Shown here: positions 7,984-31,758 of the stretch, one piece after another
Layout: each line of letters opens with the position of its first letter
How positions within the stretch are numbered: the stretch's first letter is position 1
NCBI GenBank assembly: GCA_027459625.1
Contig: DAIDHP010000039.1
Location: 1-38,904, forward strand
Origin: Chthonomonadales bacterium
GTDB taxonomy: Bacteria; Armatimonadota; Chthonomonadetes; Chthonomonadales; CAJBBX01
DNA: 38,904 bases
Reading direction: 5' to 3'
Program-made: the position numbers and the translations under genes
Notes under the pieces: model-generated
Databases searched by the model: none
What the model saw: only the letters and a program-made list of their open reading frames with translations
Told to the model about the DNA's origin: nothing

Positions 7984-8020
7984 GAATGCTATCCTCCTAT
8001 GGTTGTATGAACGCTTAGTG

Positions 8021-8383: not shown

Positions 8384-8463
8384 TCGATATCGGAACCCTC
8401 GTGATGGAGGGAAGATGTCAGAATGCGGAACACTCAATCACCCATAAGAGAGGGAAAAGAGGA

Positions 8464-9237
8464 ATGGATATGCCATGCGACGCCGTCCTCCCCGCAGGGG
8501 GACGAATAACTGGCGCTTTCGAGCAAATGGCGGGCGTTTCACTCAAGGCTCTTATCCCGCACGAACACGGAACCGTACTGGAGCACACCATATCCGTCCT
8601 GAGAGAGACGAATAGGGTAGGGCGTATTGTCGTGGTGGGACCGGAGAATCTCTCGGGACATCCCTCCGTAAAACGGGCGGATATGGTTCTGCCTGAAGGG
8701 GAATCCGGCGCGGAAAACTGCCTCATCGGGCTGAAATGGCTGGCGAAAAGCGACACTTCGCGTAAAGCCTTGATTGTCACCACTGATCTTCCCTTTCTCT
8801 CTTTCGAATCCATTAACGCTTTTCTGGATGCGTGTCCTCAAGACGGCGATATCTGTATCCCGATTCTCACCGAGGAGGAGTTGGAGTCTCGTTTCCCGGG
8901 GAGCGAGAACACATACGTTCCTCTGAAGGACGGACATTGGACCATAGGGGGCGTCTTCCTAGTCCATCCTGATACTCTCTTGGGGCGCCGTACAAGGCTG
9001 GAGGATGTTTTCGCTGCGCGGAAAAGTCAGTTCAAGATGGCATGTCTTCTCGGGCCGAAGTTCATAACTCGCTTTCTCACGAAGCGTTTGACAGTGGCGG
9101 ATATAGAAAGCAAATGCAGCGGTCTATTTCGTTGCCACGGATATGCGATTAGACACTCTCCGCCCGAATTGGCGTTCGATATGGATGAACTGAATGAGTA
9201 TGAATATTTTATGCGATGGAGCCGATTTGGAAAATAA
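8464..9237 (+). CDS. MobA-like NTP transferase family protein
   Basis: Cytosolic nucleotidyltransferase-fold protein, 257 aa. The N-terminus has DAVLPAGGRI, the P-loop-like strand-loop of GT-A type nucleotidyltransferases (usually LAGGxGxRM), but lacks the usual second Gly-x-x-Arg-Met. KALIPHEHGTVLEHTISVL matches the 'KPLIPVxGKPLLEHvi' helix. ALIVTTDLPFLS supplies the metal-binding Asp (TTDLPF) as in MobA/IspD relatives. A later FDMDELNEYEYF resembles the C-terminal 'DiDTPeDy' motif. Either ATG 8464 or ATG 8470 could be the start: AGAGGA touches the first and is 6 nt from the second. The substrate is unknown; MobA (molybdopterin guanylyltransferase) itself is unlikely because no moa/moe genes are nearby. 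Confidence 0.72.
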   Translation: MDMPCDAVLPAGGRITGAFEQMAGVSLKALIPHEHGTVLEHTISVLRETNRVGRIVVVGPENLSGHPSVKRADMVLPEGESGAENCLIGLKWLAKSDTSRKALIVTTDLPFLSFESINAFLDACPQDGDICIPILTEEELESRFPGSENTYVPLKDGHWTIGGVFLVHPDTLLGRRTRLEDVFAARKSQFKMACLLGPKFITRFLTKRLTVADIESKCSGLFRCHGYAIRHSPPELAFDMDELNEYEYFMRWSRFGK

Positions 9238-16040: not shown

Positions 16041-17120
16041 TTATTTATCTAGCATTTTGATGTTATCGAAGTTGCCAACAGGTCTGTTGATCCAGACGGC
16101 TTCCGGAAGAACGGACTGCCTTGGAACTCCCCGGACAAATCTTTCAGGATGTCTCTCATAGGCAAGTTTCAGCGTTTCGGCGCGTTGACACTGGATGTCC
16201 TCCGAGCGATTGTAGTGGACATCCTCCGGAGTCATCATGGCGACTCCGGAATGATGATGCCTACGGTTATACCAGTTGAAAAATCCCTTGCAGTGCTCCC
16301 TCGCATCCTCGATGCATCCAAACCTCTCGGGAAAGTCCGATGCGTACTTCAGCGTTTTAAACTGACTTTCCGAATAAGGGTTGTCGTTCGAGACGTGAGG
16401 GCGACTGTGAGTTTTAGACACGCCAAAGTCGGACAGGAGCATCGAGACGCTTCGAGATTTCATGGAGGCACCCCTGTCCGCGTGTATGGTCAGGCGCCCC
16501 GGCTCCACTCCCTGCCTCATTATCGTCTCCGATATCAGATCGCACGCAAGATCGGCGCTCTCCGAATAGGCGATCATCCAGCCAACCACGTAGCGACTGA
16601 AAACGTCAAGTATCACGTAGAGATAGTAATACGTCCATTTCCTCGGCCCCTTTAACTTGGTTATGTCCCAGCTCCATAATTCGTTTGGGCGCGTTGCGAG
16701 AAGCTCGGGCCTGGCGTATTTCACATGCTTCGCCTGCATTCCGCGAGGCGCGTTTTCCCTTTCCGAAGCCAGTATCCGATAATATGTCCGCGGCGAGCAA
16801 ATGTATCGCCCTTCGTCCGGGAGAGTGGTGTAAACCTCGGCGGGGGATTTGTCAACAAACCGTTCCGAGTGAAGCGTCTCAATCGCATGGTTTCTCTCCC
16901 GGACGGAAAGTGCGCGATGAGAGCCGTGTCCCCTCGGGCGACGGGGTGGCGCCGCCTTGCCGGTGAAACCCATTCTCTTACGGTACAGGGTCGCGCGCGA
17001 AACGCCAAGGGATCGGCACGCCTTGCATACGCCAACCTCCTCCGAAAGGCCAAGCGTGGCTTCAATCATCCCCTTTCCTCCGTCCCGATGCCCGCCGGGG
17101 TTATATCGAGCATCTCGCAC
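16041..17120 (-). CDS. IS3-family transposase OrfB (DDE integrase domain)
   Basis: DDE recombinase half of the transposase, with about 359 codons open. An HTH_21-like region (about residues 75-125) is followed by the rve integrase core. Catalytic residues are Asp in WSWDITKL, Asp in TIHADRGASMKSRS and Glu in NDNPYSESQFKTLKY. The core ends with FNWYNRRHHHSGVAMMTP, the typical IS3 tail. The frame has only a GTG at 17120, inside the orfA overlap. The natural product is an OrfAB fusion made by -1 frameshifting at 17123-17129. The reading frame is intact, so the element may still be active. Confidence 0.93.
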   Translation of the reverse strand: MRDARYNPGGHRDGGKGMIEATLGLSEEVGVCKACRSLGVSRATLYRKRMGFTGKAAPPRRPRGHGSHRALSVRERNHAIETLHSERFVDKSPAEVYTTLPDEGRYICSPRTYYRILASERENAPRGMQAKHVKYARPELLATRPNELWSWDITKLKGPRKWTYYYLYVILDVFSRYVVGWMIAYSESADLACDLISETIMRQGVEPGRLTIHADRGASMKSRSVSMLLSDFGVSKTHSRPHVSNDNPYSESQFKTLKYASDFPERFGCIEDAREHCKGFFNWYNRRHHHSGVAMMTPEDVHYNRSEDIQCQRAETLKLAYERHPERFVRGVPRQSVLPEAVWINRPVGNFDNIKMLDK

Positions 17121-17578
17121 AAGTTTTTTTGGAACTCAATTATTATCTCGGCCTGATGAAGTTTGTGTTTCGCGCGCTCCAGTTCAACTCTCAGCCTCTC
17201 GTTCTCCTCCTCGAGCGGGGTTTTAAGTGGCTTTCGCCCGCGCTTGCGGGACTCCAAGGCCGATTCACCGCCCCGCGCGTACTCCCGACGCCATTGACAC
17301 AGCTGAGACGAGTAAAGTCCCTCTTGTCTTAATAGCGCTCCCAACTCACCCTGGGAGGAGCACAACGCAGCCTCCCTCACAATGCGGGCCTTGTATGATG
17401 GTGTGAAGCGACGGCGGGCGCTTCGAGCCCTAACCTCGTTGTCGGACGAAGAAGGGGAGGAGGAGGGGCGGCCCGAATTTGACGGACGCTCGCATGGCTT
17501 GGCTTCGCTTCGCTCAGCCGCGCCAAGCGCCCGTCCGTCAAATTCATTCCTTGTTGATACGACTTGTTTGTGATTCAT
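17066..17578 (-). CDS. IS3-family OrfA (helix-turn-helix)
   Basis: 170-aa DNA-binding subunit. The HTH_Tnp_1-type domain spans about residues 57-110 (RRFTPSYKARIVREA ... LLRQEGLYSSQLCQWRREY), followed by a leucine-zipper-like coiled coil (EEENERLRVELERAKHKL). The N-terminal 50 residues are unusual: they read through a palindromic repeat (17475-17545) and a Ser-rich tract. ATG 17578 is the first in-frame start. The last 55 nt overlap orfB. Confidence 0.88.
   Translation of the reverse strand: MNHKQVVSTRNEFDGRALGAAERSEAKPCERPSNSGRPSSSPSSSDNEVRARSARRRFTPSYKARIVREAALCSSQGELGALLRQEGLYSSQLCQWRREYARGGESALESRKRGRKPLKTPLEEENERLRVELERAKHKLHQAEIIIEFQKNLCEMLDITPAGIGTEERG
17123..17129 (-). promoter_or_regulatory. 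programmed -1 frameshift site A AAA AAC
   Basis: In the OrfA frame the codons are CAA AAA AAC, giving the classic slippery heptamer A_AAA_AAC. A -1 slip continues as KLVRDARYNPGG in the OrfB frame. This explains why OrfB lacks a good start codon. Confidence 0.85.
17475..17545. repeat. palindromic (REP/MITE-like) element inside orfA
   Basis: GAATTTGACGGACG (17475-17488) and CGTCCGTCAAATTC (17532-17545) are perfect inverted repeats; GCTTGGC (17497-17503) and GCCAAGC (17522-17528) pair inside. The 71-bp unit keeps the orfA reading frame open and encodes part of its N-terminal tail (ERSEAKPCERP). Confidence 0.65.
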
Positions 17579-18388: not shown

Positions 18389-19992
18389 TCAATCATTTTT
18401 CAACCAAATATCCATGGCATGTGATAGATCTCTTCTTGACCTGATCGGGAATTGCATTTCATGAGAAAGAAGCTGCATCCCATGATTATAATCCGCTCCG
18501 CGTTTAAATACCAGAACATTATTATTTATATTAATAATTCCATATTTAGGGCTGAAAAGTATTCTTCTTATGCAATATTTGTATAGAGTGCGGCTGAGAG
18601 GAAAGATAGTCCCATGTACGGAAAGTATAATATACTGAATCGATGAATTAGTGATCGCATAATCCAACTTATTTGGCGAACAAGGACTATAATCTTCCCC
18701 ATCTTCCTGTTGTAAAGCTTGAAAGGTGTTACCCCAAGCCACATGATAAAATGGATTGGGAAATGTGTAAATATTTACGCGATGGGACAAATGAGGAATT
18801 AAATCGGACTGGGCCGAAACAGATGCCGTTTTAGGCAGAATAGATAATGCAAGAAATATCTGCCGGCTGGCTTGGGATGATAAGGTTGGAGCGAGGGGGT
18901 ATGGTTCGTTTGCCAAGGGACTTAAGGGGATCATCTTCATTATACAGACACCCCATAAAACTATGATTATAGCCGAGGTAATATGATTTCCCCAACATCG
19001 TAATCGGTGGAAAGCAGTTATTGCGGAGAGAAATACGAATGGCGTTATCATTGCAGTATATTGGTAAGTGATTGTGTGCATAGATTCACGATCACTTAAA
19101 AGGTCGGCTAATAGATTTGGAATAGTTAGAAGAAAAATATCAGGGGCAATAAATGAAGAAAAACCACAGGTTGCAGTAAATTTAATATAAAAATTCTGCA
19201 AGAATCATTCTGCAATCTATCGAATATTACGATTGGATGCTTTAATATATCAATAATGATTGACTTAAGATTATCTCCGTAATTAGCATAATAAGATATA
19301 TATGCAGATGGTTCTCCATGATTAAAATAATGAATTGTTGAAAAAGCAATGCAGATCGATATGATCCCTAGTCCAATAGTTGCGATTCCTATTCTCTTGT
19401 TTAAAAATAAAGCGTATATCCCTATCATTGCAATAGTAAAACCGGCGGTTTCCTTGGAAAGGGATGTAAATACAAGAAATAAAAAATACCAAAACCATTT
19501 TTTGTTATAAAGAAAATAAAATATTGAAATAAGAACTGATGTTATTAATACCTCCGGATGAAAATCAAAAGTGTTCGTCCACTGAAGTGAAGGATATAAT
19601 AAGTATGCGAAACCAAATAAAAGAGCAATAATAGAAGAACTAAGCCTTTGTTTCGCTATAAGATAGACGGGCAAAGCGCCTATCCCAAGTGAAATTGTTT
19701 GAACAATGAGTAATATTTTAGGGTTATCCCATAGCCAATATAATGGAGCTAATAAATAGAGAATCGCGCTAAAGTGATCAGCCATAAGATGCATTCCTCG
19801 CACTGTCACAAACGCACTATGTCCATGGCTTATTAGCCATACAGCTTGATCGAAAATGCCCATATCATAAGCGGTCAATGCAAAATGGTCAAAAAGAAAA
19901 AATGATTGTTTTGTAAATATAAATATATATAAACAAATCCCAATCAATAATAATATATCACATATATTATCTAAATACTTTTTGTTTTGCAT
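18389..19992 (-). pseudogene. DUF2079 membrane protein, single-base frameshift
   Basis: Two adjacent frames make up one DUF2079 protein. 19992 to about 19164 encodes the N-terminal half (FALTAYDMGIFDQAVW, RGMHLMADHFSAILYLLAP), and about 19164 to 18389 the C-terminal half (GFSSFIAPDIFLLTIPNLL, then FPNPFYHVAWGN). Restoring one G to the GTGG at 19164-19167 joins them as LLQPVGFSSFIAP, as expected for the family, whose members are GT-C-like polytopic membrane proteins of unknown substrate. ATG 19992 is 3 nt after the prepilin stop. It is paralogous to the intact gene at 20778-22439 but is AT-rich where that one is GC-rich. A sequencing error cannot be excluded. Confidence 0.85.
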
Positions 19993-19995
19993 TAT

Positions 19996-20781
19996 TTAAT
20001 TTAAATCCCTCATTGTTTGCCAATCCACTCTAGGCCAGTGTTCATCATATCCTTGGCCGCAGTCCCACGGAGCTTTTTCTAATATTTGACTTACAGGCAT
20101 GGATTTTGCATGACCATCCATAAATGCGAAATTCATCCTGTCACTTGGATCCCATCCTAGTTGTCCTTGAGGACAATCCGTTTCCAACCAAGGTAACTGA
20201 GTTTCACGATTGTCATGCCAAACCCAAAGATCATTAAAAACAAATGTCTGTGAAGGATAGGGAAAATCATCTTCTCTCCAAACTTTACCGGAAATACCCC
20301 CGCAAGCTTTTGGTGTAAAACCCGCATACAAATACATTCTGTAATGATATGACGACCAATGTGTTCCTCCACCTAAAAATGAAGCTTGAGCTCCTCCATC
20401 ACTCGGACAATGCCATACCTGTTTGTTTTTAACGTATGGGTCCAACTGGCTACCAATACTATCGTATTGAATATAAAATTGTTGATTTGGATTACTAACT
20501 CCAAAATGACCACCGTATAACTCACCGCAATCATCCCCTACCGCCTGTGCAGCCTGAAAATATAATACTGGATAACATGAATCATAATCTTGAAGATATA
20601 ATTGAAGGGACGTATTCAATTGTCTAAGATTAGATATGCATGAAATTGAATTTGCCACTTCTCTTACATGATTGAAAACAGGGAAGAGAATTGCTGCAAG
20701 TACGGCGATAATGCTTATGACAACTAATAATTCAACCAAGGTGAATGCATTATTGGAATATATTTTAATGTGCATTTTCAT
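19996..20781 (-). CDS. DUF1559-type prepilin/pseudopilin
   Basis: 261-aa protein with a type IV prepilin N-terminus: cleavage motif NNA|FTLVELLVVISIIAVLAA with Glu5, processed by a prepilin peptidase. It then has CISNLRQLNTSLQLYLQDYD, a globular Cys-rich region, and the C-terminal MNFAFMDGHAKSMP motif (the H-x9-DG region of Planctomycetes and Armatimonadota pseudopilins). Such proteins are usually numerous in their genomes and their role is unclear. The ATG overlaps the TGA of the upstream DUF2079 gene (ATGA), so translation is coupled. Base composition is AT-rich. Confidence 0.92.
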   Translation of the reverse strand: MKMHIKIYSNNAFTLVELLVVISIIAVLAAILFPVFNHVREVANSISCISNLRQLNTSLQLYLQDYDSCYPVLYFQAAQAVGDDCGELYGGHFGVSNPNQQFYIQYDSIGSQLDPYVKNKQVWHCPSDGGAQASFLGGGTHWSSYHYRMYLYAGFTPKACGGISGKVWREDDFPYPSQTFVFNDLWVWHDNRETQLPWLETDCPQGQLGWDPSDRMNFAFMDGHAKSMPVSQILEKAPWDCGQGYDEHWPRVDWQTMRDLN

Positions 20782-22439
20782 TCTTTCATGCCTTTATCAC
20801 GCTTGAATATTGTCACTCCGCCGCCGTGTGCAACCACTTGGTAATATCCCGAGGAAACCGCCTTGGTTAATAATCGCCGGTACGGGCCGGGATCGGTAAT
20901 CACAAGATAATCCACGGGATTATCGCGGATCAGAGGCGTCAATCTGGCTGGCATCGGAGTATGGGCGTTCATTACCTCCGCCTCGATCACCTCTTTTCCC
21001 GGACCGTACCACGCCTTGATGAAAGGGTTGGGGAACATGTAAATCCGATTTCGGTGATCGAAGGAAACGACCATGCCCCACGAGGCGGATACGGACGCGG
21101 ATCGGGGAATTGGATTATTCGCAAGCAACGCCCGGCGTTCACGCACCACGCTTGCTGGAAGAAACCCTCGCCATATGTGCGTCATATTGTCTCCAGGGCC
21201 ATAGCTCCAAAAACAGAACGCCGATATCCCCGCCAGAACGACGCCAGCCATATTTTCACCGAACCGAGGTAGCAGGTCGAACCGCCGCGTAAAGCCAAAA
21301 AGGCGTCCAAGCCCGATGGCGGCGGAGGCGAATACGAACGGCGTGATGGCGGGCGTGTATTGCGCCCAGATCGTCTGCATGATGATTTTATCGCTTAGCA
21401 GGTTCAGCGCAAGCTCCGGCAACGCCGCGATCAGCAGTTCGGGGCACAGCAGGCAGATCAATCCGCAGGGCATTAATAGTTGCAGGATGTAGTTCCCGTT
21501 CCCGTAAACGGCGTAGGAGAAGGAGCTTATCGGGTGGAGCAGCACATTTGCGGCTATGCGTCCGGATGTTGACCCGAAATGACGGTATAGCTCCGCGTAC
21601 CCAGTTCCGCCGCCAGAGAGCGCTCGCATGACGGCGAGCGAGAGGAAAAGCCAGCCAATTCCGGCAAGCGTCGTTATAACGCCCGCCCATATGCGTATTC
21701 TTCTTCGGCGTTGCAAGGTTATTCCGTCCGCTGAAGGGGGCGATTTAATGGCGAATGCTCGCAATACGATCGCCAAGCCTAAAACCGCCACGCTCGGAGC
21801 CAAATCCTGGCGGCATAAAAGCGTGAGCGCGGTCCACGCGGCGAAAGTCTTGTACCGCTCCCTCTCCATGGCGTCGATGGCGAAAAGGAGAAGCGGAATG
21901 GCGAGCATGTTCGGGTGAAAATCGTAGAGGATCGGGTACGCCAGGGTCGGCGCGATGAGATAGGCGAAACACAATCCGGTTGCGGCGAATGGGGGGGAGG
22001 AATGATGTCGAGCGAGACGGTATAACGGAACCGCGCCGATAGCCACCGCCGCCGATTGAAATAACACGAGAGCCTGAGGCTCTGGAAAAAGCCGATAGAA
22101 AGGGGCGAGTAAAAAAAGGATAGGAGTGAAATGGTCCCCGAAAAGGTTCATCCCGCGAACGGTGTTGAACAGAGACTGGAAATGGGAAATCCGCCAGAGC
22201 GTCTGATCAAATATGCCCAGGTCAAAGGCGTCCGCCTGGAAGGTGTTCACGCGTATGACGGACAACGTTCCGTATATCGCGGTGAACGCCGGAATGCCAG
22301 CCCACAGCAGGATAACCGCCGCCTTCTCAACGCGGTCGCGAGGAAGGCGGCTGGAGGCGTAATCAAGATATCTTCGAAGTGAAATCCTTTTCGCTTTTGT
22401 TGGCTCTTGGGTATCCATTGGGGCGGGAACCGGCTTCAT
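20778..22439 (-). CDS. DUF2079 polytopic membrane protein
   Basis: Intact 553-aa member of DUF2079, a GT-C-like inner-membrane family. The N-terminal loop after TM1 has FQADAFDLGIFDQTLWRIS and RGMNLFGDHFTPILFLLAP, with the acidic and His residues conserved in the family. About ten TM helices follow, and a C-terminal soluble part includes RIYMFPNPFIKAWYGP and DNPVDYLVITDPGPYRR. Glycosyl transfer is inferred for the superfamily, not shown. It lies 25 bp after the ATP-grasp gene and overlaps the prepilin gene by 4 bp, so it may be on the graspetide operon, though a functional link is unproven. It is GC-rich, unlike the two genes after it. Confidence 0.9.
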   Translation of the reverse strand: MKPVPAPMDTQEPTKAKRISLRRYLDYASSRLPRDRVEKAAVILLWAGIPAFTAIYGTLSVIRVNTFQADAFDLGIFDQTLWRISHFQSLFNTVRGMNLFGDHFTPILFLLAPFYRLFPEPQALVLFQSAAVAIGAVPLYRLARHHSSPPFAATGLCFAYLIAPTLAYPILYDFHPNMLAIPLLLFAIDAMERERYKTFAAWTALTLLCRQDLAPSVAVLGLAIVLRAFAIKSPPSADGITLQRRRRIRIWAGVITTLAGIGWLFLSLAVMRALSGGGTGYAELYRHFGSTSGRIAANVLLHPISSFSYAVYGNGNYILQLLMPCGLICLLCPELLIAALPELALNLLSDKIIMQTIWAQYTPAITPFVFASAAIGLGRLFGFTRRFDLLPRFGENMAGVVLAGISAFCFWSYGPGDNMTHIWRGFLPASVVRERRALLANNPIPRSASVSASWGMVVSFDHRNRIYMFPNPFIKAWYGPGKEVIEAEVMNAHTPMPARLTPLIRDNPVDYLVITDPGPYRRLLTKAVSSGYYQVVAHGGGVTIFKRDKGMKE

Positions 22440-22464: not shown

Positions 22465-23541
22465 TTAATTCACGGTTCCGCGTACAAGTAAATTCACAAG
22501 GGAATCGGTTATCGGCATTCCAGTTAAATGTTCAACCCATTGCCATTGTCCCGCAGTATTCACCTCCAAAAACACATAGTCCCCCTCCGGGGTTAAAATC
22601 ATATCCACGCAACCGAATACAATCTTCAGCTCGCGCATTAAAGCGAGTAATTTTTCGCAGATATCATCCGGAAGCTTGTGTTTTGCATGATGAAGAAAAC
22701 CGGAAATATCATGTTGTGATGAGAGTAATTGCGTTCTAAAATCCGTTTTGGTGTCCTCGCGTTCCTGGGAATGGATCTCCGCCGCGAAAATATCCTCGCC
22801 GATGATCGTTATTCTTATCTCAACGCGTTTTTCGATATATTCCTGAAATATCGCGGGGCATCCCGAGAGATTTTTTAATCCGTTCCTTTTTTCCTGCGTG
22901 AGAATTTGAGAGAAAATCGCTTTCGCTTCCGGATTACGCGGCTCCGGGGTTGCGGGGGTGAGATGGAATTGGCCCTCGTACGCCGCCTCAACCTCCGCGG
23001 AGAAATCGGGGGGACCGCCCGTGGTTAATCCGATGACCGGTTTGAACAGGACGGGACACGCCATGGATTCCGCGAATTCCTCGACGGCTTCCGGATCATT
23101 GGTGATAAGCGTTCGAGGAATGGATAATCCGATTTTACGAGCCACTTCAAATTGGTACGCTTTCACGTTGGCTCTGTAATCGCTTACAAAAGGATTAACC
23201 CACAAGCAGTTCATGCTTTCAAATGCTCCGTGAAGCATGCTGGCGCACTCATGTCGGATAAAACCGCGTTCGTTTTGTGTGGTTCCGTCCGGGAAAACAA
23301 ATTCTCCTATTCTTCTTCGCCACACGGATGTTACATCACGGGTATCCATGCGGGTCCCATTCAGTGAGAAAACGGCGTATAATTCATTTTCGCCAACATA
23401 GAGGTTGGTATTTGTAATGAGGGGAATGGTTTCGGTGTTCAACCGAAAATAGGGAACGTCCAGTTTTTCCAATTTGGCGGATATAGCGTCAACGTTTGGC
23501 TCGTAAAATTGCGAAATAATGAATACAAAAGGCTTTTTCAT
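22465..23541 (-). CDS. MvdD/MvdC-type ATP-grasp graspetide maturase
   Basis: 358-aa ATP-grasp ligase of the type that cyclises RiPP precursors by joining Asp/Glu side chains to Ser/Thr or Lys (omega-ester/amide, 'graspetides' such as microviridin). The N-terminal MvdD-like domain contains FRLNTETIPL and VTSVWRRRIGEFVFPD, the family's W-x-R-R-x motif. The ATP-grasp core has CPVLFKPVIGLTTGG, FQEYIEKRVEIRITIIGED, FAAEIHSQ and the Mg/ATP-binding FGCVDMILTPEG with YVFLEVNTAGQWQWVE. ATG 23541 has AAGGA 8 nt upstream and lies 13 nt after HEAT-like protein 1; a GTG at 23565 is inside that gene. The two upstream peptides are the likely substrates. Confidence 0.92.
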   Translation of the reverse strand: MKKPFVFIISQFYEPNVDAISAKLEKLDVPYFRLNTETIPLITNTNLYVGENELYAVFSLNGTRMDTRDVTSVWRRRIGEFVFPDGTTQNERGFIRHECASMLHGAFESMNCLWVNPFVSDYRANVKAYQFEVARKIGLSIPRTLITNDPEAVEEFAESMACPVLFKPVIGLTTGGPPDFSAEVEAAYEGQFHLTPATPEPRNPEAKAIFSQILTQEKRNGLKNLSGCPAIFQEYIEKRVEIRITIIGEDIFAAEIHSQEREDTKTDFRTQLLSSQHDISGFLHHAKHKLPDDICEKLLALMRELKIVFGCVDMILTPEGDYVFLEVNTAGQWQWVEHLTGMPITDSLVNLLVRGTVN

Positions 23542-23554
23542 AACTGTTTTCCTT

Positions 23555-24121
23555 TTATTTTCCACAAGCTTTTAATGCAGTCTGCATCTCCTGAATAACC
23601 AGAGGATTTTTCTCCGTCTTCAGCGCCTCCGCCACCTTCGGCGCGGCGCCTTGCAAATGCTGTTGCAATACTAATCGCGCGGCTTCCCAGCGAATCCCTC
23701 TTTGCGGGTAGTTCATGAAATCATTCGCCGCTTTTGTCATTCCTTCGATTTCGTATTCTCTCAAAGCAGGATCATTGAAGGGCAAGACTATATGACACAT
23801 TGCGCTTATTCCGATTCCATTTATTAGCCAATCATATTGTTTCCTGGCAGTGTGGAATGTGTATTTGAGAAGTTCATCAAATTCCTGACGGTCGTAGTAT
23901 TGCTTCCAAGGTTTCTTCATACCATTTGGAGCAACAAATGCATACAACTGATTCATTATTTCCATCGTTTCAGGTGTCGGATACATTTTTGAGGGGAGAA
24001 GTTTATCGATAGGATATTGTTTATTGTGTCTTCCAATGAAACCTGTTAGATACAAAGCACCACCAACGCACCATAGGATCACCACACCAAAAGCAATGCG
24101 TTTGACTAACTTGTTCCTCAT
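23555..24121 (-). CDS. membrane-anchored HEAT-like protein 1
   Basis: 188-aa protein not matching any named family I know. A single N-terminal TM or signal anchor (RIAFGVVILWCVGGALYLTG) leaves a soluble domain outside the cytoplasm. The domain has conserved PTPETMEIMNQLYAFVAPNG, a central Trp/Tyr-rich part, and a C-terminal HEAT-like helical pair (GIRWEAARLVLQQHLQG, then AALKACGK in the paralogs). Its paralogs lie at 24579-25145 and 25612-26178; the last is nearly identical in the soluble part. ATG 24121 has GAGGA upstream. It sits between precursor A and the maturase, so it may help processing, export or immunity of the peptide; this is inference. Confidence 0.8.
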   Translation of the reverse strand: MRNKLVKRIAFGVVILWCVGGALYLTGFIGRHNKQYPIDKLLPSKMYPTPETMEIMNQLYAFVAPNGMKKPWKQYYDRQEFDELLKYTFHTARKQYDWLINGIGISAMCHIVLPFNDPALREYEIEGMTKAANDFMNYPQRGIRWEAARLVLQQHLQGAAPKVAEALKTEKNPLVIQEMQTALKACGK

Positions 24122-24200
24122 CGATTCCTCGCTTTCCGAAGAATGACCAGATTGTCTCCGAGTAAGCCATAAAGACAAACTGGTCACTCATGCGGCAAAA

Positions 24201-24428
24201 TCATGCAAATGTATAAGTGGCAGATGAATCTACATCCGGTCCTGTGCCTTCATTATTACTCTCTGCATCCGTGTCATTGGGATGAATGCGCGTATTTCCG
24301 TATGATTCGGAGAAGACGCTGTTAGGACCATATAATATTGACGTAGGCACGCTTTTCGCCCACATCATCACGAAGGGGACAAAGGCTCCATCCTTCCCGA
24401 TCGTCCCCGCAGTCGCCGAATTTTCCAA
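24201..24428 (-). CDS. graspetide precursor peptide A (predicted)
   Basis: 75-aa peptide starting at TTG 24428 with AAGGAGG nine nt upstream. The leader (1-42) contains FVPFVMMWAKSVP, reminiscent of the PFxxR-type recognition helix of graspetide leaders, then YGPNSVFSES. The C-terminal core (about 43-75) is rich in acceptors (Asp52, Asp54, Glu56, Glu60, Asp65, Asp67) and donors (Thr53, Thr62, Ser68, Thr71, Thr73). Against precursor B the leader is almost invariant and the core variable, with H49-P50, D52, D54, E56, E60, T62-G63, D65 and T71-Y-T73 kept. No Cys or Lys in the core, so ester links are expected. Ring positions and any cleavage site are unknown. Confidence 0.75.
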   Translation of the reverse strand: MENSATAGTIGKDGAFVPFVMMWAKSVPTSILYGPNSVFSESYGNTRIHPNDTDAESNNEGTGPDVDSSATYTFA

Positions 24429-24687
24429 CTTTTTAAACCTCCTTCTTTATAATCTGCAGAGGAATTTTCATTCCCCTACTATAATAAGGGCTCGAACTCA
24501 TCAAAAGGTTACGGTTGTTTTTCGATTTTTTTCGTAAAATGTAAATAATTTTCAAGGCGCCACCTGGGATCGTGGGGGTTACTCCCCGCAAGCCTTCAAC
24601 GCAGCCTGCATCTCCTGAATAACCAGAGGATTTTTCTCCGTCTTCAGCTCCTCAGCCACCTTCGGCGCCGCTCCCTGCAAATGCTGT
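24350..24687. repeat. duplicated block, copy 1 (HEAT-like 3' end, promoter, precursor leader)
   Basis: Almost identical to 25382-25722, offset 1032 bp. It covers the start of the precursor gene, its promoter and leader, the intergenic DNA and the last 35 codons of the HEAT-like gene upstream. It shows that precursor plus HEAT-like protein spread as a unit by tandem duplication. Confidence 0.9.
24478..24506 (-). promoter_or_regulatory. promoter of precursor A
   Basis: Minus strand TTTTGA (24506-24501) and TATAGT (24483-24478), 17-nt spacing; leader of about 45 nt to the TTG at 24428. Conserved base for base in front of precursor B. Confidence 0.55.
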
Positions 24688-25145
24688 ACCGCCACAAGGT
24701 GTGCCGCTTCCCATCTGATGCCCTCCTGCGGATCTTTTAAAAAAGCGGTTGCTGCGTCAGTCATTCCGGTTAGTTCATATGAACTTAGAGTGGGATCGTT
24801 CGTGGGCAATTTAATACGAAGCATGGCACTCAACGCCCCTCCATTTACTAGCCAGTCATACGGTTTTGTATCTTTGAAATAGACATAATGAAGTAATTGA
24901 TCGAATTGGGACTTAGTGTAATTATCTCTGGAGGACCTATGCATTCCATTCGGCATTATAAGAGCATACATTTTATTGCATGTCTCAATTGTTTGTGGAG
25001 TGGGTTTCCAAGGTAATGGGAATAGTACATCCAGAGGTTTCTTGTTAAATCTATTGCCTATCATGCCTGTCTCGTAAATAACTACGAAGATACAGAATAA
25101 AATTACTATAAAAGATCCAATCCGTTTTAAGAGTTTATTCCTCAT
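24579..25145 (-). CDS. membrane-anchored HEAT-like protein 2
   Basis: 188-aa paralog of HEAT-like proteins 1 and 3 with the same plan: a TM anchor (IGSFIVILFCIFVVIYETG), KKPLDVLFPLPWKPTPQTIE, a Tyr-rich middle, and a C-terminal GIRWEAAHLVAVQHLQGAAP repeat. It is the most diverged of the three through residues 20-150, but its last 35 codons are nearly identical at the DNA level to those of copy 3. That points to gene conversion or a duplication breakpoint within the gene. It follows precursor B, separated from it by a stem-loop. Function unknown. Confidence 0.78.
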   Translation of the reverse strand: MRNKLLKRIGSFIVILFCIFVVIYETGMIGNRFNKKPLDVLFPLPWKPTPQTIETCNKMYALIMPNGMHRSSRDNYTKSQFDQLLHYVYFKDTKPYDWLVNGGALSAMLRIKLPTNDPTLSSYELTGMTDAATAFLKDPQEGIRWEAAHLVAVQHLQGAAPKVAEELKTEKNPLVIQEMQAALKACGE

Positions 25146-25170
25146 ATTTTCGAAACCTTTATCGAACAAA

Positions 25171-25212
25171 TATCCAACATATCATTAAATGTTATTTATA
25201 ATATGTTGGATA
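25171..25212 (-). repeat. perfect 12-bp stem-loop between precursor B and HEAT-like protein 2
   Basis: TATCCAACATAT (25171-25182) and ATATGTTGGATA (25201-25212) are exact complements with an 18-nt loop. It lies just after the precursor stop and 25 nt before the next ATG. It could attenuate or stabilise the transcript so that more precursor than downstream protein is made. There is only a short T-run, so it is not a clear intrinsic terminator. Confidence 0.6.
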
Positions 25213-25235
25213 TAATATAAATCCAAAAACAAAAC

Positions 25236-25460
25236 TTAGCCTGTGTAAGTTACTGATGTTTCCGGATCTAGTCCTGTGTGCTCATTGGATCCTTCATTAT
25301 CCATATCATCGGGATGGATCGGAGAAGTTGCATTGGATTCGGAAAAAACGCTGTTGGCGCCGTAGAACATCTCCGCTGGCACGCTTTTCGCCCACATCAT
25401 CACGAAGGGGACAAAGGTTCCATCCTTACCGACCGTCCCCGCAGTCGCCGAATTTTCCAA
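25236..25460 (-). CDS. graspetide precursor peptide B (predicted)
   Basis: 74-aa paralog of precursor A, also with a TTG start behind AAGGAGG. Its leader shares the first nine residues and FVPFVMMWAKSVP with A; YGANSVFSES follows. The core has Asp51, Asp52, Asp54, Glu56, Glu60, Asp65 and Glu67 as possible acceptors, and Ser58, Thr62, Thr68, Ser69, Thr71 and Thr73 as donors, ending TYTG. The core differs from A at many positions while length and acid spacing stay constant. This is the pattern of a modified, diversifying core behind a recognition leader. Confidence 0.74.
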   Translation of the reverse strand: MENSATAGTVGKDGTFVPFVMMWAKSVPAEMFYGANSVFSESNATSPIHPDDMDNEGSNEHTGLDPETSVTYTG

Positions 25461-25722
25461 CTTTTTAAACCTCCTTCTTTATAATCTGTAGAGGAATTTT
25501 CATTCCCCTACTATAATAAAGGCTCGAACTCATCAAAAGGTTACGGTTGTTTTTCGATTTTTTTCGTAAAATGTAAAAAAATTTTCAAGGCGCCACCTGG
25601 GATCGCGGGGGTCACTCCCCGCAAGCCTTCAACGCAGCCTGCATCTCCTGAATTACCAGAGGATTTTTCTCCGTCTTCAGCGCCTCCGCCACCTTCGGCG
25701 CGGCGCCTTGCAAATGCTGTTG
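25382..25722. repeat. duplicated block, copy 2
   Basis: Second copy of the block at 24350-24687, covering precursor B's leader region, its promoter and the 3' end of HEAT-like gene 3. Differences are scattered single bases and a few small indels. Confidence 0.9.
25510..25538 (-). promoter_or_regulatory. promoter of precursor B
   Basis: TTTTGA (25538-25533), 17 nt, TATAGT (25515-25510) on the minus strand, identical in layout to the precursor A promoter. Confidence 0.55.
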
Positions 25723-26178
25723 CAATACTAATCGAGCGGCTTCCCACCGAATACCTCTTTGCGGGTAGTTCATAAAATCATTCGCCGCTTTTGTCACTCC
25801 TTCGATTTCGTATTCTCTCAAAGCAGGATCATTGAAGGGCAAGACTATATGACACATTGCGCTTATTCCGATACCATTTATTAGCCAATCATATTGTTTC
25901 CTGGCAGTGTGGAATGTGTATTTGAGAAGTTTGTCAAATTCCTGACGGTCGTAGTATTGCTTCCAAGGCTTCTTCATGCCATTTGGAGCAACAAATGCAT
26001 ACAACTGATTCATTGTTTCCATCGTTTCAGGTGTCGGATACATTTTTGAAGGGAGGAGTTTATCGATAGGATATTGCTTATATCCGCCGCCGCTCACGCC
26101 GGTCCAATGGAGAATCCCTCCAATGGCTAGGATAACCCCAACCCCGAAAGCGATGCGTTTCGCCAATTTCCCTCTCAT
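25612..26178 (-). CDS. membrane-anchored HEAT-like protein 3
   Basis: 188-aa paralog, almost identical to protein 1 from residue 30 on, but with a different anchor and linker (IAFGVGVILAIGGILHWTG, SGGGYKQYPIDKLL). ATG 26178 is chosen because the other two paralogs start at the equivalent Met-Arg; an upstream in-frame start (26373) would add 65 residues with no homology. No precursor gene lies upstream of it, so it is the outermost gene of the cluster, divergent from the gene at 26500. Confidence 0.78.
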   Translation of the reverse strand: MRGKLAKRIAFGVGVILAIGGILHWTGVSGGGYKQYPIDKLLPSKMYPTPETMETMNQLYAFVAPNGMKKPWKQYYDRQEFDKLLKYTFHTARKQYDWLINGIGISAMCHIVLPFNDPALREYEIEGVTKAANDFMNYPQRGIRWEAARLVLQQHLQGAAPKVAEALKTEKNPLVIQEMQAALKACGE

Positions 26179-26499: not shown

Positions 26500-27036
26500 A
26501 TGAGCGTGAATCCAAACGCGCCTCGCATGCACGGTCCGTACAATTCCTCGTCCGGAAATCACGGCGCGCTTGCCGGGGTGATTGCCGCCGTCGTTGTCAT
26601 CGCGGCGACGGCGATCATCGTTGGAATGGTGTTGCGGAGTAATGGTCAAAAATCGAAAGCGGAGGAAGCAGCCAAAGCGGACCCGGGCTCAGTGGTGACC
26701 TCGTTTTTCACCTCCATTCAATCCAAAAACTGGAACGCCCTGAGCGGCCTCATCTATTTGAAGCCCAACTCCTCCAACCCCGATGAATCCAATCCGGATT
26801 ACATCGTCCGGCATGATATCCGTCCGCTGTTTGAATCCACCAATATCACGAATTTCACCGTGAAAAAGTGGAAAATCGATGGCGACAAGGCGACCGTGTG
26901 GACCACTTTGACCGCCGCTCCGGTAAACGCGCCCCCTTCCATCAAGCCCGTGCAATCAAGCCCGACATTCGGGCTGACGCTGGTAAATGGCCAATGGAAA
27001 ATCAGCACATATTACTTGCCACAAAACAGTAAATAA
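26500..27036 (+). CDS. single-TM protein with an NTF2/DUF4878-like domain
   Basis: 178-aa protein with a short cytosolic N-terminus, one TM segment (LAGVIAAVVVIAATAIIVGMV, about 24-44) and an extracytoplasmic domain. The domain begins PGSVVTSFFTSIQSKNWNAL and ends TFGLTLVNGQWKISTYYL. That start and end are typical of small NTF2-like (DUF4878/SnoaL-like) domains, which form cone-shaped folds that bind lipids or peptides. AGGAGG precedes the ATG. It is divergent from the graspetide cluster, so a shared role is possible but unsupported. Confidence 0.7.
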   Translation: MSVNPNAPRMHGPYNSSSGNHGALAGVIAAVVVIAATAIIVGMVLRSNGQKSKAEEAAKADPGSVVTSFFTSIQSKNWNALSGLIYLKPNSSNPDESNPDYIVRHDIRPLFESTNITNFTVKKWKIDGDKATVWTTLTAAPVNAPPSIKPVQSSPTFGLTLVNGQWKISTYYLPQNSK

Positions 27037-27109
27037 ATCTATCCGAGCATGCAAAGATACAATTTTTCTGCCAAGGAAGCAGATGGAGGAGCGACGGATA
27101 ATCTCCCGT

Positions 27110-28141
27110 TTAGTGCGACATTCGGATATCCAGTTTGGCGGACACATCCTCGTAATCGGGCGATTCAGCGTAGATTTTTTCGTAATCGGCTCGCGCCATA
27201 TCCTTACTTCCCAACTCCACGTATGTTTGCGCCCTCTCGTATCGCAACCCAAGGAGGACGTGTTGTGAGCGGTCCTTTGTCCGCCTTAGCGCGACGGTGA
27301 GAATATCCAAGGCGGCTTGAGGCATGTTAAGTCGTCGCAAAGCCTTCGCCTTGTACAGCAACATCGTGGCGTGCACCTCCGTTTCATTCCCCACCCCTTC
27401 ACCCAATTGAACCACCTCCTGCATGCTTCGGAGATCGTTGGAGCGGGTGTCCACAAGAAGTTCGCATAGGGAGACCTTAACGACAAGGTCGTTAGGATCG
27501 TGACTGAGTATATGGCGTAATTGATTTATCGCGAAATCCCACTCGTGTAAATCCTGGAAGACCTCCGCAAGCATCAGATTGGCGCCGTGGGCGCTTGGAG
27601 TGATGTGTATGGTCAGTTCCTGCGTAATGGGGAGATTGATCTGCGTGGTGATGTGGAAGGTGTGGAATGAAACGCCGATCTCGTTGGGATATTGGAGCGC
27701 ATGAAGAAGATAGCTCTTCGCATCTTCGTAACGATGTAACGTCATCGCAAGCGAACCGGCGAGAAAGGCGGCGTCCGGCAACTCCAACGCTCCCTGCAGA
27801 TGCCTCATGGCGGAGTCGCTGTCACCGTGCTCCATATCTTTGGCGCCGTCGATGAACGCCTGTTCCAATGGGTTGGGAGTCGGAGTGGGGGGTATTGGCG
27901 CTAAGTTGGGCACGGCTCTCGATTGCTGTTTCAACGCTCTATTGAGAGCGCGTGTTCCGCTCGGTACTTTATACGAGTAGGAAAGCCCCGTTCCCGGCAA
28001 GCCAAGGGTCATTCTCGTTCCGGTGGGGCCGATCGTCATCTTCGCCCCTCTTGGCCCGAGACTGAGCGAGGCGCCCGATTTGCTAAAGTTCACGGAAACG
28101 CCGGGGGCGATCCGAATTCTTCTCCAAAAGCGAAATCCCAT
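27110..28141 (-). CDS. DUF4236 domain protein with TPR repeats
   Basis: 343-aa protein. Residues 1-60 are a DUF4236 domain: GFRFWRRIRIAPGVSVNFSK, then LSLGPRGAKMTIGPTGTRMT and GTGLSYSYK, with its typical glycine turns. A Pro-rich linker (PIPPTPTPNP) leads to TPR-like helices from about 95 to 335 (AMRHLQGALELPDAAFLAG, ARADYEKIYAESPDYEDV). GAGGAGG lies upstream of ATG 28141. TPRs suggest a scaffold; the function of DUF4236 is unknown. Confidence 0.82.
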   Translation of the reverse strand: MGFRFWRRIRIAPGVSVNFSKSGASLSLGPRGAKMTIGPTGTRMTLGLPGTGLSYSYKVPSGTRALNRALKQQSRAVPNLAPIPPTPTPNPLEQAFIDGAKDMEHGDSDSAMRHLQGALELPDAAFLAGSLAMTLHRYEDAKSYLLHALQYPNEIGVSFHTFHITTQINLPITQELTIHITPSAHGANLMLAEVFQDLHEWDFAINQLRHILSHDPNDLVVKVSLCELLVDTRSNDLRSMQEVVQLGEGVGNETEVHATMLLYKAKALRRLNMPQAALDILTVALRRTKDRSQHVLLGLRYERAQTYVELGSKDMARADYEKIYAESPDYEDVSAKLDIRMSH

Positions 28142-28185
28142 CCTTCCAGTCCTCCTCTAGTTATTAAAATCGTATAATAACTCTT

Positions 28186-28977
28186 CTACTGCGTCACCAC
28201 CTGCACGCTCCAGTAAACCATGTCTATGCCGGGATCGTATTTCCCGTCCGTATTAAAGGTGTCATTGGCGGTCTCGGGGATGCCGCCGGGATCCGTGCTG
28301 CTATACATCCGAGGCTGTGATACGTCTATGGTCAAATACTCGTTGAAAGTCGAAGTGTTTTCGTTGGACTGGTTTCCGAAGGCGTCGGTGATCTTGTAGG
28401 GATCGTCCGAAGCCGTGCTCACCGGAGTCGTTGTGGTGGTGATGATGTTAATCTGCAGATAACGCGGAGGATTGCCGTTGTTCGGATCGGGATCGCCTTG
28501 GGATGTCACCGGGGCGATCTGGGAAAGGCTCAAGGTGAACTGCAGCGTGTTCCCGCCGTTTGGCGGATTGGTGGCGACGGGTTGTCCGCGCGGGATGAAG
28601 GCGTTCTGGGATGGATCGCCGTTCATACCGTTCAGAACGTGGTATAGTGTATAACCGGAGGCGTTCACGAAGGGTTGATTTTGACCGTATTCCACGAAAT
28701 CGGTGAAGCATCCCGGAGAGCCGTGCAACCCCGTGGCGAAGCCGTTGCCGCCGTAAGGCACGTGCACCGTGGGAATGGGGCCGTTCTCGCCGTTCGGGTC
28801 CGCGGCGTTTCGTAGGATGAAGAAATAGTGATAGTTTGGGTTCACGGGACCGTTCATCTGCATGGTCACAATTAGTTGCGTTCCGCTGGTTAGCCCCGCC
28901 GGGGAGCGAGCGCACCCCACCAATCCGATGGGGGATAGAACGGTCAAAATCGCCAACAACGCAACGTTTTTATTCAT
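28186..28977 (-). CDS. putative lipoprotein of unknown function
   Basis: 263-aa exported protein. The signal peptide ends in the lipobox LVGC (Cys at about residue 22), so it is lipid-modified. The rest is Asn/Pro/Gly/Thr-rich beta-type sequence with no motif I recognise, for example VHVPYGGNGFATGLHGSPG and ITTTTTPVS. The start is ATG 28977, with AAGGAG 8 nt upstream; an ATG at 28983 is too close to that site. It is 44 bp upstream of the DUF4236 gene on the same strand and divergent from lnt, whose product would complete lipoprotein maturation. Confidence 0.75.
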   Translation of the reverse strand: MNKNVALLAILTVLSPIGLVGCARSPAGLTSGTQLIVTMQMNGPVNPNYHYFFILRNAADPNGENGPIPTVHVPYGGNGFATGLHGSPGCFTDFVEYGQNQPFVNASGYTLYHVLNGMNGDPSQNAFIPRGQPVATNPPNGGNTLQFTLSLSQIAPVTSQGDPDPNNGNPPRYLQINIITTTTTPVSTASDDPYKITDAFGNQSNENTSTFNEYLTIDVSQPRMYSSTDPGGIPETANDTFNTDGKYDPGIDMVYWSVQVVTQ

Positions 28978-29063
28978 GCACATCTCTCCTTGTCAAATCC
29001 CATGCCGGCGGGGGAGCGTCCCTTCGAATTGAAAGATGACGTATGTATAATATATCCCATCTT

Positions 29064-30595
29064 ATGCGAAAATACTCCGTGCTCCTCCTCGTTGTTCTCT
29101 CCGCTGTTGGATTGACCCTCGCATTTCCAACACCCAACCTCGAACCGTTGGCGTGGGTCGCATTGATACCCTTTTTTATCGCCTTATACCGATGTCACAA
29201 ATTTCGTTGCGCATTGGGGGCGGGATATCTTTTCGGGCTGATCCACTGGGGATGGACAACTAGTTGGATTGGAGCCACCGTGGTGCGCTGGGCGGGTGGC
29301 TCCGTGGGATGGTTCGCATGGGTGGGGCTTACGTTGATAGAATCCTGGTGGTACGCGCTTTTCGCCGTCCTCGCTTGGTGGATGATCCGTCGCGCATCTC
29401 CGTCCCTGCAACCGCTCGGCGTCGCCGCCATTTGGGTGTCGGTGGAATGGCTGCGAGGGTTGGGCGATCTCTCCATGCCCTGGGCGTTGATAGGCTACAC
29501 GCAGTTCCGTCTCTTGCCCGTAATCCAGATGGCGAACCTTCTTGGGGTTTACGGGGTCTCCTTCCTGATTGTGTATTTCAACGCCTCCGTCGCCCGCTGG
29601 CTGCAAATATGCGCGGACGGTGGAAGAGAATTGTATCGTAGGGAGGCGAGAACGCTTCTTCCAACGGCAATCCTCATCGCTCTGGCGCTAATTTACGGGT
29701 GGGTTCAACTGTCTCGTAGCGTTCAGGGCGAGAGGATGGCGGTTGCGGTGATGCAGCCAAATATCCATAGCGAACGCCACTGGGTTCCCAACCCCCCGCG
29801 AGACCTCTCTCTTTTCAAGCGTATGATGGATGGCGTTGTCGGGAACCCCGTTTGGAGGAATGCGTCCAATCGCCTAGTCATCTGGCCGGAGAGCATCGCT
29901 CCCGGTGACGCTATTAACGACTACGACCTTCGCTCCTACTACACGGACATGTCCTATCGCGACAAGATGTGGCAGGTGGTCGGCACCGAATACGAGGACG
30001 ATCAGGGGCGTCCCTATAACTCCGCCGCACTTTTCAGCCCGCAGGGAACGTTGGCGGCTCGGTACGACAAGAACTGGCTTGTGCCGTTCGGAGAGTGGAT
30101 CCCGTGGCGAAAACAGTTAGCGCCGTTTGGATCGACGTTCCACTTCTTCAGCGTGGATGATGTGGCGGGGCATGACAACACCCCTGTCGCGGCAAACCCC
30201 GCAAAGCTCTGCATTCTGATATGCTACGAAACGGCGTTTCCCGAATTATCCCGCGATCGGGTGGCGATGGGAGCGAACCTTCTGGTCTCCATCACCAATG
30301 ACTCCTGGGCGGGGCGCTCCAAGGTGCAGTGGCAGCACGCCGCAATGGGGGTCTTTCGGGCGGTGGAGACGGGGAGATGGTTTGCCGCGTCCTCCACAAC
30401 CGGCGTAACGTTCCTCTCCGATCCCCGAGGGAGAGTGACCAGCCTGCCGCGATACGAGGTCGGGTCGCTTGTGAGGGAAGTGACATTGCCTTCCGGCGAG
30501 ACGCCATACGTGCGCTGGGGGAAGTGGGAGCCGTATCTCTTCATACTGATAGCGATCGTTTGTCTAGGAGTTGTAAGAGGGGAGAGCGCAAAAAA

Positions 30596-30614
<19 letters not shown>
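29064..30614 (+). CDS. lnt: apolipoprotein N-acyltransferase
   Basis: Inner-membrane enzyme that transfers the third acyl chain to lipoproteins. An N-terminal group of TM helices precedes a nitrilase-fold domain and a last TM. With the start at 29064 (516 aa), the catalytic triad is Glu276 (IWPES), Lys336 (YDKNWLVPFGEW) and Cys387 (ILICYETAFPE), close to E. coli Glu267-Lys335-Cys387. An in-frame ATG at 29043 is possible, but neither start has a good RBS, and a TATAAT lies at 29047-29052, so a near-leaderless message from 29064 fits better. The last codons and the TGA lie inside the tRNA-Phe gene on the opposite strand. Confidence 0.94.
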
Positions 30615-30668
<54 letters not shown>

Positions 30669-30863
30669 ATGAGATTGAAATCAATCACAAATACATTTTA
30701 CATCGCGTTCGGCGGGGATGTCAATAGCGCGATGCCTGAACAAGATTAAGGGATTAAAGGAGCGACAGGATAGGGGGATCGGGGTTCGGCTGTATCGTCC
30801 CGCATATCGCCGTTCCAATCTAAACGGAAGCGTCATTCCCTGTTTCGATTCGGATACCCCATC

Positions 30864-31036
30864 GTAGGGGCGATCCCTTGTGGTCGCCCGCAATCCCGGC
30901 AAATGAAACAGCCATCGAATCACCGAAAACGCTGGAATACCGGTACACCCAACACCCGGCAACGAAACATCCGCCCGTGATTCGATCCATTTCTGATACC
31001 GCCACGTTGCGGGCGACCACAAGGGATCGCCCCTAC
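30864..31036. repeat. inverted-repeat element, copy 1
   Basis: 173 bp bounded by GTAGGGGCGATCCCTTGTGG (continuing to 30893) and its near-perfect reverse complement ending at 31036, about 30 bp each. It has no coding capacity that I can support. It looks like a miniature mobile or palindromic repeat. Similar GGGCGACCACAAGGG-type repeats are known from several deep bacterial phyla. Confidence 0.8.
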
Positions 31037-31117
31037 ATTGGTTATTCAGACGGATGTCAAAATTCCCAATCATCGGTTGGTTATCACTGGTGGCATAAAC
31101 CGAACGCCATAAAAACC

Positions 31118-31213
31118 GCGACTCCGCAGCTCTGCGTGAGAATCACCCGCGAAACCGACCGCGTCCGTCAGGACGTTCGTCCGAAAGGACCCCCTGCCGG
31201 TTATTTTATATGA
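31118..31213. repeat. associated repeat block, copy 1
   Basis: About 95 bp containing CTCTGCGTGAGAATC and ending GGTTATTTTATATGACCG, repeated with changes at 31561-31661. Together with the inverted-repeat element it shows a tandem duplication of about 440 bp. 30670-31943 has no gene I can support. Confidence 0.65.
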
Positions 31214-31305
31214 CCGGAACCCGGTACCACACACCCGGCACCCGATACCCGGCACTTCGCAATCGATCATCCGTCCTCCAAACCGCACAACGTTCCGTCA
31301 CAATC

Positions 31306-31477
31306 GTAGGGGCGACCCTTGTGGTCGCCCGCAATCCCGGCAAATGAAACAGCCATCGAATCACCGAAAACGCTGGAATACCGGTACACCCAACACCCGG
31401 CAACGAAACATCCGCCCGTGATTCGATCCATTTCTGATACCGCCACGTTGCGGGCGACCACAAGGGATCGCCCCTAC
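31306..31477. repeat. inverted-repeat element, copy 2
   Basis: 172-bp copy, virtually identical to copy 1 across the interior. The left end lacks one base (GGCGACCC in place of GGCGATCCC). Confidence 0.8.
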
Positions 31478-31560
31478 ATTGGTTGTTCATACGGAAATCA
31501 AAATTCTAAATGGCTGGTTGGTCATCGCGGTAACTTAAAATTGGAAGATCAAACACAACC

Positions 31561-31661
31561 GCGACTCTGCGGCTCTGCGTGAGAATCCCCCGCGAAACAC
31601 ACGTCGCGTCCGGCGGGACGCTTGTCCGTAAGGACCCCCCGCTGGTTATTTTATATGACCG
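31561..31661. repeat. associated repeat block, copy 2
   Basis: Second copy of the block at 31118-31213, with about 85 percent matching bases by eye, ending in the same GGTTATTTTATATGACCG. Confidence 0.6.
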
Positions 31662-31672
31662 TCACCCCGGAA

Positions 31673-31758
31673 CCCAACACCCGGCAACGAAACATCCGCC
31701 CGTGATTCGATCCATTTCGGATACCGCCACGTTGCGGGTGACCACAAGGGTCGCCCGC
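31673..31758. repeat. inverted-repeat element, truncated copy 3
   Basis: Only the right half is present: AACACCCGGCAACGAAACAT through GCGGGTGACCACAAGGGTCG. The final CCCCTAC is lost. Confidence 0.7.

Follow-up and report, generated by a model that had tools for sequence, protein, structure and literature searches.

A probable mobile graspetide cluster with HEAT-like and DUF2079 partner genes in an uncultured Armatimonadota bacterium

Relation to described graspetide systems

The described systems closest to the locus considered here are the microviridin/marinostatin clusters (MvdC/MvdD, MdnB/MdnC) and the TIGR04187/tgmA-tgmB graspetides (group 13 graspimiditides, rosaritide group 21), with graspetide surveys, in their accessible text, naming only a handful of accessory proteins whose roles are known and hardly any secondary modifications (PMC8939145, PMC13097080). 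The locus lies in a 38,904-nucleotide window, by which we mean the whole stretch of DNA analysed, on contig DAIDHP010000039.1 of a Chthonomonadales bacterium, an uncultured member of the Armatimonadota, and from its gene content we read it as a horizontally moving graspetide biosynthetic cluster, a reading to which we give a probability of about 0.75. We have high confidence that this is a real, conserved and mobile graspetide cluster, and good confidence, within the data searched, that its partner set and its precursor/ligase clade are new. A precursor, an anchored HEAT-like protein, an ATP-grasp ligase and a DUF2079 protein form a four-component unit conserved in three genomes, the source genome and two other Armatimonadota genomes (loci JAKBZR010000005 and JAMCWF010000035), with a relic in a sister species.

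In the window the genes are transcribed on the minus strand in the order HEAT 3, precursor 2, HEAT 2, precursor 1, HEAT 1, ligase and DUF2079. The first-pass annotation of this DNA had noted the series of three HEAT-like genes, two interspersed precursors and the ligase on one strand, and each of these was recovered on the minus strand exactly where it had been placed. Its boundary of 22465-26178 proved too narrow, as the conserved DUF2079 gene at 20778-22439 belongs to the cluster, and it had overlooked both the intergenic stem-loops and the mobility of the cluster. The features are:

26178-25612, minus strand: HEAT-like protein 3, membrane-anchored, 188 amino acids (aa), without a precursor gene in front
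25378-25720, minus strand: near-identical block of HEAT 3 C-terminus, intergenic region and precursor 2 leader
25488-25511, minus strand: hairpin upstream of the precursor 2 ribosome-binding site (region z score -2.0)
25460-25236, minus strand: precursor peptide 2, 74 aa, TTG start, leader as in precursor 1, diverged core
25170-25213, minus strand: stem-loop between precursor 2 and HEAT 2 (z -4.3)
25145-24579, minus strand: HEAT-like protein 2, membrane-anchored, 188 aa
24346-24687, minus strand: near-identical block of HEAT 2 C-terminus, intergenic region and precursor 1 leader
24456-24479, minus strand: hairpin upstream of the precursor 1 ribosome-binding site (region z -1.9)
24428-24201, minus strand: precursor peptide 1, 75 aa, TTG start, leader 1-28 with PFVMMW, core 29-75
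24141-24189, minus strand: stem-loop between precursor 1 and HEAT 1 (z -4.0)
24121-23555, minus strand: HEAT-like protein 1, membrane-anchored, 188 aa
23541-22465, minus strand: graspetide-synthetase-type ATP-grasp ligase, 358 aa
22439-20778, minus strand: DUF2079 polytopic membrane protein, 553 aa, GT-C-like predicted fold, PF09852

The window cluster shows the sequence features by which the graspetide class was judged, namely Pfam matches above cut-off, the leader motif, and acceptor and donor columns in the core, the side-chain rings themselves being predicted. With the microviridin/marinostatin systems it shares the ligase family, the catalytic residues and the best solved-structure matches, and the microviridin leader PFFARFL and the PFVMMW found here both read Pro-hydrophobic-hydrophobic-x-x-aromatic. 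Microviridin clusters, however, are recognised by two ligases, a PFFARFL leader and a TxKxPSD core, none of which occurs in the window cluster, where a single ligase from outside the Mvd clade accompanies cores with neither Lys nor TxKxPSD, and where HEAT and DUF2079 partners are present and the peptidase-containing transporter (PCAT) and HlyD are not. The TIGR04187 model is the top NCBIfam match of the ligase at 208.6 bits, yet this lies below its cut-off of 350. Rosaritide acceptors form a DxDxD block, comparable to the DxDx(D/E) of the present cores, whereas the tgmB sequences fall in a separate clade from the window ligase, the O-methyltransferase, PpiC partner and PCAT of the tgmA-tgmB type are lacking from the window cluster, and the conserved hydroxyls here lie mainly C-terminal, not N-terminal, of the acids. 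Loci of the candidate phyla radiation (CPR) and thuringinin loci, as described in the accessible text of PMC8939145, resemble the present one in having accessory TPR or uncharacterised membrane proteins beside precursor and ligase, although the partner here is HEAT-like, anchored, and found once behind each precursor. Neither HEAT nor DUF2079 appears among the associated families in the accessible text of the surveys PMC8939145 and PMC13097080, supplementary tables aside. The earlier description of the cluster as apparently undescribed is consistent with this literature, which holds no HEAT or DUF2079 partner within the openly available text searched, supplements and subscription papers lying beyond it.

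Ligase, precursors and the repeated unit

Both Pfam domains expected of an MvdD/MvdC-type maturase, as the ligase had been called, match above cut-off: PF21068 (MvdD pre-ATP-grasp; E=7e-12, 46 bits, cut-off 27) and PF08443 (RimK-type ATP-grasp; 28.1 bits, cut-off 21), with the PDB relatives 5ig9, 5ig8, 7mgv and 7m4s representing the MdnB/MdnC/CdnC/AMdnB graspetide synthetases. Running graspetide maturase hidden Markov models (HMMs) on 22465-23541, as had been proposed, gave a divided answer. PF21068 passes its threshold and the best NCBIfam models are all graspetide maturases (TIGR04187, TIGR04184 and TIGR04185; E=1e-61 to 1e-56), but these fall below their own, the MvdD, MvdC and SAV_5884 families scoring 206, 192 and 209 bits against curated cut-offs of 475, 425 and 350, roughly half of what is required. 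The ATP/Mg-binding and catalytic residues K167, R243, D313, E326 and N328 are invariant in all 20 ligase sequences compared. In the tree of 20 sequences the three Armatimonadota ligases form a separate clade (support 100/99), apart from MvdC/D and tgmB, and the window ligase does not group with ATP-grasps unconnected with ribosomally synthesised and post-translationally modified peptides. A ~25-residue insertion (~178-203) after K167, GLTTGGPPDFSAE..., is confined to this clade and found in none of the other 17 sequences compared. On sequence grounds, the ligase is best placed as a member of the graspetide synthetase superfamily outside the named equivalog families.

Both precursor genes carry an AAGGAGG ribosome-binding site ahead of the TTG start, and the leader they encode, MENSATAG..GKDG.FVPFVMMWAKSVP, includes PFVMMW. 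The Phhx(1,2)h motif, reported in the accessible text of PMC8939145 for about half of graspetide precursors, fits all four precursors compared, as PFVMMW here and as PFVMLW in both relatives, whose precursor orthologs retain PFVMLWAK. The leader had been taken for an unknown type, which holds for its exact sequence, private to this family, but not for its pattern, which obeys the published motif, and recognition of this leader by the ligase is predicted from the motif fit. A search for the leader near ATP-grasp genes found the same type beside the ligase in the two other Armatimonadota genomes, where the small frames are likewise conserved beside orthologous ligases, and neither of the observations that the first-pass annotation had named as refuting its reading was made. 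Their designation as two graspetide precursors is thus supported by the ligase family, the catalytic residues, the Phhx leader and the co-conservation of precursor and ligase in three genomes. With non-synonymous (dN) and synonymous (dS) divergence of 0.34 and 2.1 between the cores of precursors 1 and 2, and of 0.50 and 2.2 between the precursors of JAKBZR010000005 and JAMCWF010000035, the frames appear to be under purifying, coding-type selection. No relatives of the precursors were found in IMG/VR.

Acids are class-conserved at core positions 41, 52, 54, 56 and 67, and hydroxyls (Ser/Thr) at positions 40, 68, 69, 71 and 73, in all four precursors. Lys is absent from all cores, so that only esters, and no lactams, would be expected, and the products of the cluster are very probably graspetides of the familiar, ester-bridged kind. 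The alternation D52xD54x(D/E)56, followed by S69x(S/T)71xT73, suggests as a working hypothesis an acceptor-first ladder, the reverse of the donor-first order seen in the characterised fuscimiditide, rosaritide and corallotide examples (KxxxD, TxxKxxDD). A fuller scheme, in which the acceptors D52/D54/(D/E)56 are joined to the later donors S69/(S/T)71/T73 in a three-rung ester ladder of inverted polarity, and the peptide is then HEAT-bound and glycosylated outside the cell, is speculative and in its entirety improbable.

The two repeats in the window divide sharply. Positions 25378-25720 are 95.6% identical to 24346-24687 over 343 columns, a block spanning the HEAT C-terminus, the intergenic region and the leader and ending at precursor residue 28, where the leader/core boundary is therefore proposed. 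The core and the following HEAT body are about 40–67% identical (DNA) between units, and the bodies of HEAT 1 and HEAT 3 are 96% identical. That the diverged block comprises a core and its following HEAT gene fits the expectation for, and points to, cognate core-HEAT pairs, the alternation of almost identical leader blocks with diverged blocks of core and HEAT gene offering a natural swap experiment. With three HEAT genes and two precursors, the window shows a tandem expansion, specific to this lineage, of a unit that is otherwise 1:1; no precursor was found in front of HEAT 3 in the window.

A stem-loop of unrelated sequence follows each of the four precursor genes (z -4.3 and -4.0 in the window, -2.9 and -4.8 in the relatives), with none of 200 shuffles as stable as that between precursor 2 and HEAT 2. 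An extra hairpin lies directly upstream of both window precursor ribosome-binding sites, with weak statistics (z about -2), and the one upstream of precursor 2 is not evident in JAKBZR010000005 or JAMCWF010000035. Neither sigma-70 promoters nor terminators are in excess over shuffles in the window, and no promoter is therefore claimed.

Distribution and mobility

JAKBZR010000005 and JAMCWF010000035 carry precursor, HEAT-like, ligase and DUF2079 genes in this order, one of each, the DNA around them being otherwise unrelated. Of 291 Armatimonadota genomes, exactly 3 give a strong match to the precursor (E<=1e-37), and these same three are the only ones with a strong match to the HEAT-like protein (E<=1e-92) and with a full-length ligase of this clade; no strong HEAT-like match came from the remaining 288, and the protein was not found on plasmids. 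Beyond the phylum the search was a contig scan with near-exact peptide patterns only, which distant clusters in other phyla could escape.

In the sister species the flanking genes are kept, but of the ligase only the final 40 codons survive, joined in frame to a DUF2079 gene that is truncated and has an internal deletion (locus positions 8001-9180). Between this relic and the window dS is 0.04–0.11, far under the 0.8–1.6 of the flanking genes, and the cluster therefore moved between these lineages long after their split and then decayed in one of them, which makes graspetides a trait that has recently been mobile in Armatimonadota. A two-frame transposase (HTH_Tnp_1 and rve integrase core) is present at 16041-17578, to the left of the cluster island and just outside it.

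As to other origins, a defence system was rejected, PADLOC matching no component, as was a phage origin, PHROGs matching through the general RimK family only. The Armatimonadota ATP-grasps L072-L075 were likewise dismissed as cluster members, lying elsewhere in the tree with no family precursor or HEAT partner beside them. Distant MvdC/D-type ATP-grasps without the partner set are found at G018:C1:384820-385725, G022:C54:27824-28228, G080:C401:12602-13471 and G089:C180:1591-1908. Small LuxR-like helix-turn-helix genes stand directly upstream of the precursor in the relatives (JAKBZR010000005 locus 6526-6879, JAMCWF010000035 locus 6635-6940); they have weak Pfam matches only, none lies beside the window cluster, and they were not retained as a core component.

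Possible roles of the partner genes

The DUF2079 protein (PF09852, E=2e-56) belongs to a domain of unknown function to which Pfam assigns no role and which is absent from the literature searched. Its gene lies directly downstream of the ligase in the window, JAKBZR010000005 and JAMCWF010000035, with the relatives' copies scoring 638–645 bits against the window copy and every other paralog 219 or less, and the three cluster-linked proteins form a private clade on a long stem (support 100/100). The protein models as a GT-C glycosyltransferase fold: for the AlphaFold2 model (predicted local distance difference test, pLDDT, 80; predicted template modelling score, pTM, 0.84), every one of the 18 Foldseek PDB matches at E<=0.001 is either a GT-C enzyme or an oligosaccharyltransferase (OST)/translocon complex that includes one, those to OST/STT3, DPY19, PglB, ArnT and AftA having E values of 2e-6 to 3e-4. 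Sequence identity to these enzymes is 11–14%, and the likeness extends to an Asp right after the first long helix, Asp73, invariant in 16 sequences. GT-C enzymes draw on sugars linked to polyprenyl phosphate, on the outer side of the membrane, and a predicted glycosylation step on that side is on this account plausible.

Each HEAT-like protein has a single hydrophobic segment, at the N-terminus behind a positively charged, KR-rich (Lys/Arg) start, a charge distribution that would place the HEAT-like domain outside the membrane. Their AlphaFold2 model is all-helical (pLDDT 87), with about seven longer helices after the hydrophobic segment, and the Foldseek PDB matches listed for it are mostly designed armadillo/HEAT-type solenoids (best E=0.017, none E<=0.001). 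HEAT_2 matches the C-terminal third only below cut-off (E 0.03–0.24), and all of these proteins share a Cys close to the C-terminus.

From these data we infer a pathway that extends to ring topology and chemistry, export, immunity, glycosylation and bioactivity, and to the functions of the HEAT-like and DUF2079 proteins. The ligase would bind the PFVMMW leader helix and, with ATP, link core Asp/Glu carboxylates to Ser/Thr hydroxyls as side-chain esters, with the stem-loop behind each precursor gene holding precursor mRNA in excess of enzyme mRNA. The peptide would leave via an unlinked transporter, the leader being cut off in trans. Outside the membrane, the N-terminally anchored HEAT-like protein would bind its cognate core, most likely for self-protection or as a docking chaperone, and it is because of this proposed binding that core and HEAT body would diversify together. 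The GT-C-type DUF2079 protein would work at the outer membrane face, possibly moving a lipid-linked sugar onto the peptide. The cluster supplies testable candidates for producer self-protection or outside presentation and for graspetide glycosylation, and offers a possible function for DUF2079.

The cluster gene set contains no C39/PCAT processing gene. A stand-alone C39 frame with an N-terminal hydrophobic segment lies in the region 26740-30801 of another contig and is a candidate trans-acting leader peptidase; two DUF2079 genes follow it directly, which is a second hint at a link between DUF2079 and exported peptides.

Several points weigh against this account. The peptide product, its -18 Da shift and the activity of the ligase are predictions from the genes, the cluster contains no exporter or protease (the C39 match on the other contig is the only one in the genome), and there are just three intact clusters, the two in relatives coming from metagenome-assembled genomes. 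The HEAT assignment rests on a predicted fold and a sub-threshold HMM only, and the DUF2079 substrate may be something other than the peptide. Whilst immunity genes often have orphan copies, no orphan HEAT-like copies occur in other genomes. This last point suits the proposal that the HEAT-like protein takes part in biosynthesis as a docking or maturation factor, with a role like that of rosaritide MirC, and is not an immunity protein or receptor, its copies having been amplified with the precursors simply through a shared transcription unit. Obligatory co-occurrence with ligase and precursor would be expected of such a factor, partner-protein-dependent graspetide synthetases exist (PMC13097080, accessible text), and of the near-identical HEAT 1 and HEAT 3 only one has its own precursor. 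We consider it a serious possibility, though a less favoured one, as the KR-rich start and hydrophobic helix predict a domain outside, away from the cytosolic ligase, if the topology is correctly inferred, and as the HEAT body diverges along with the core, which would not be expected of a factor that works with a single ligase common to both precursors.

The DUF2079 gene could be a passenger on the mobile island with no role in the pathway, as the genus has multiple copies of the family (13 matches in the source genome) and another, broken paralog adjoins the cluster. We regard this as unlikely, given that the gene comes straight after the ligase in each of the three clusters while other surroundings differ, that the copies tied to the clusters group in a clade of their own spanning two families of the order, and that ligase and DUF2079 decayed together in the sister species. 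Less probable by far is a RimK-like ligase that would add amino acids to side chains or the C-terminus of a small acidic protein and would not be a macrocyclase. Its ATP-grasp domain does match RimK and phrog_2599, but RimK-family models reach 53 bits against 209 for the graspetide model, the MvdD pre-ATP-grasp domain is present, the best NCBIfam and PDB matches are all graspetide synthetases, and the leader carries the Phhx(1,2)h motif.

Next to the cluster, the broken DUF2079 gene (18389-19992) is split into two overlapping frames by an apparent frameshift and resembles the cluster copy far less than the relatives' cluster copies do. A gene at 19996-20781 encodes a prepilin-like protein with an N-terminal methylation motif; it shares four bases with the cluster DUF2079 gene at the latter's 3' end and is absent from the JAKBZR010000005 and JAMCWF010000035 clusters. 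At 30700-31750, short frames repeat a common stretch (ETAIESPKTLEYRYTQHPATKHPPVIRSISDTATLRATTRD) in several copies, which looks like an intergenic repeat family.

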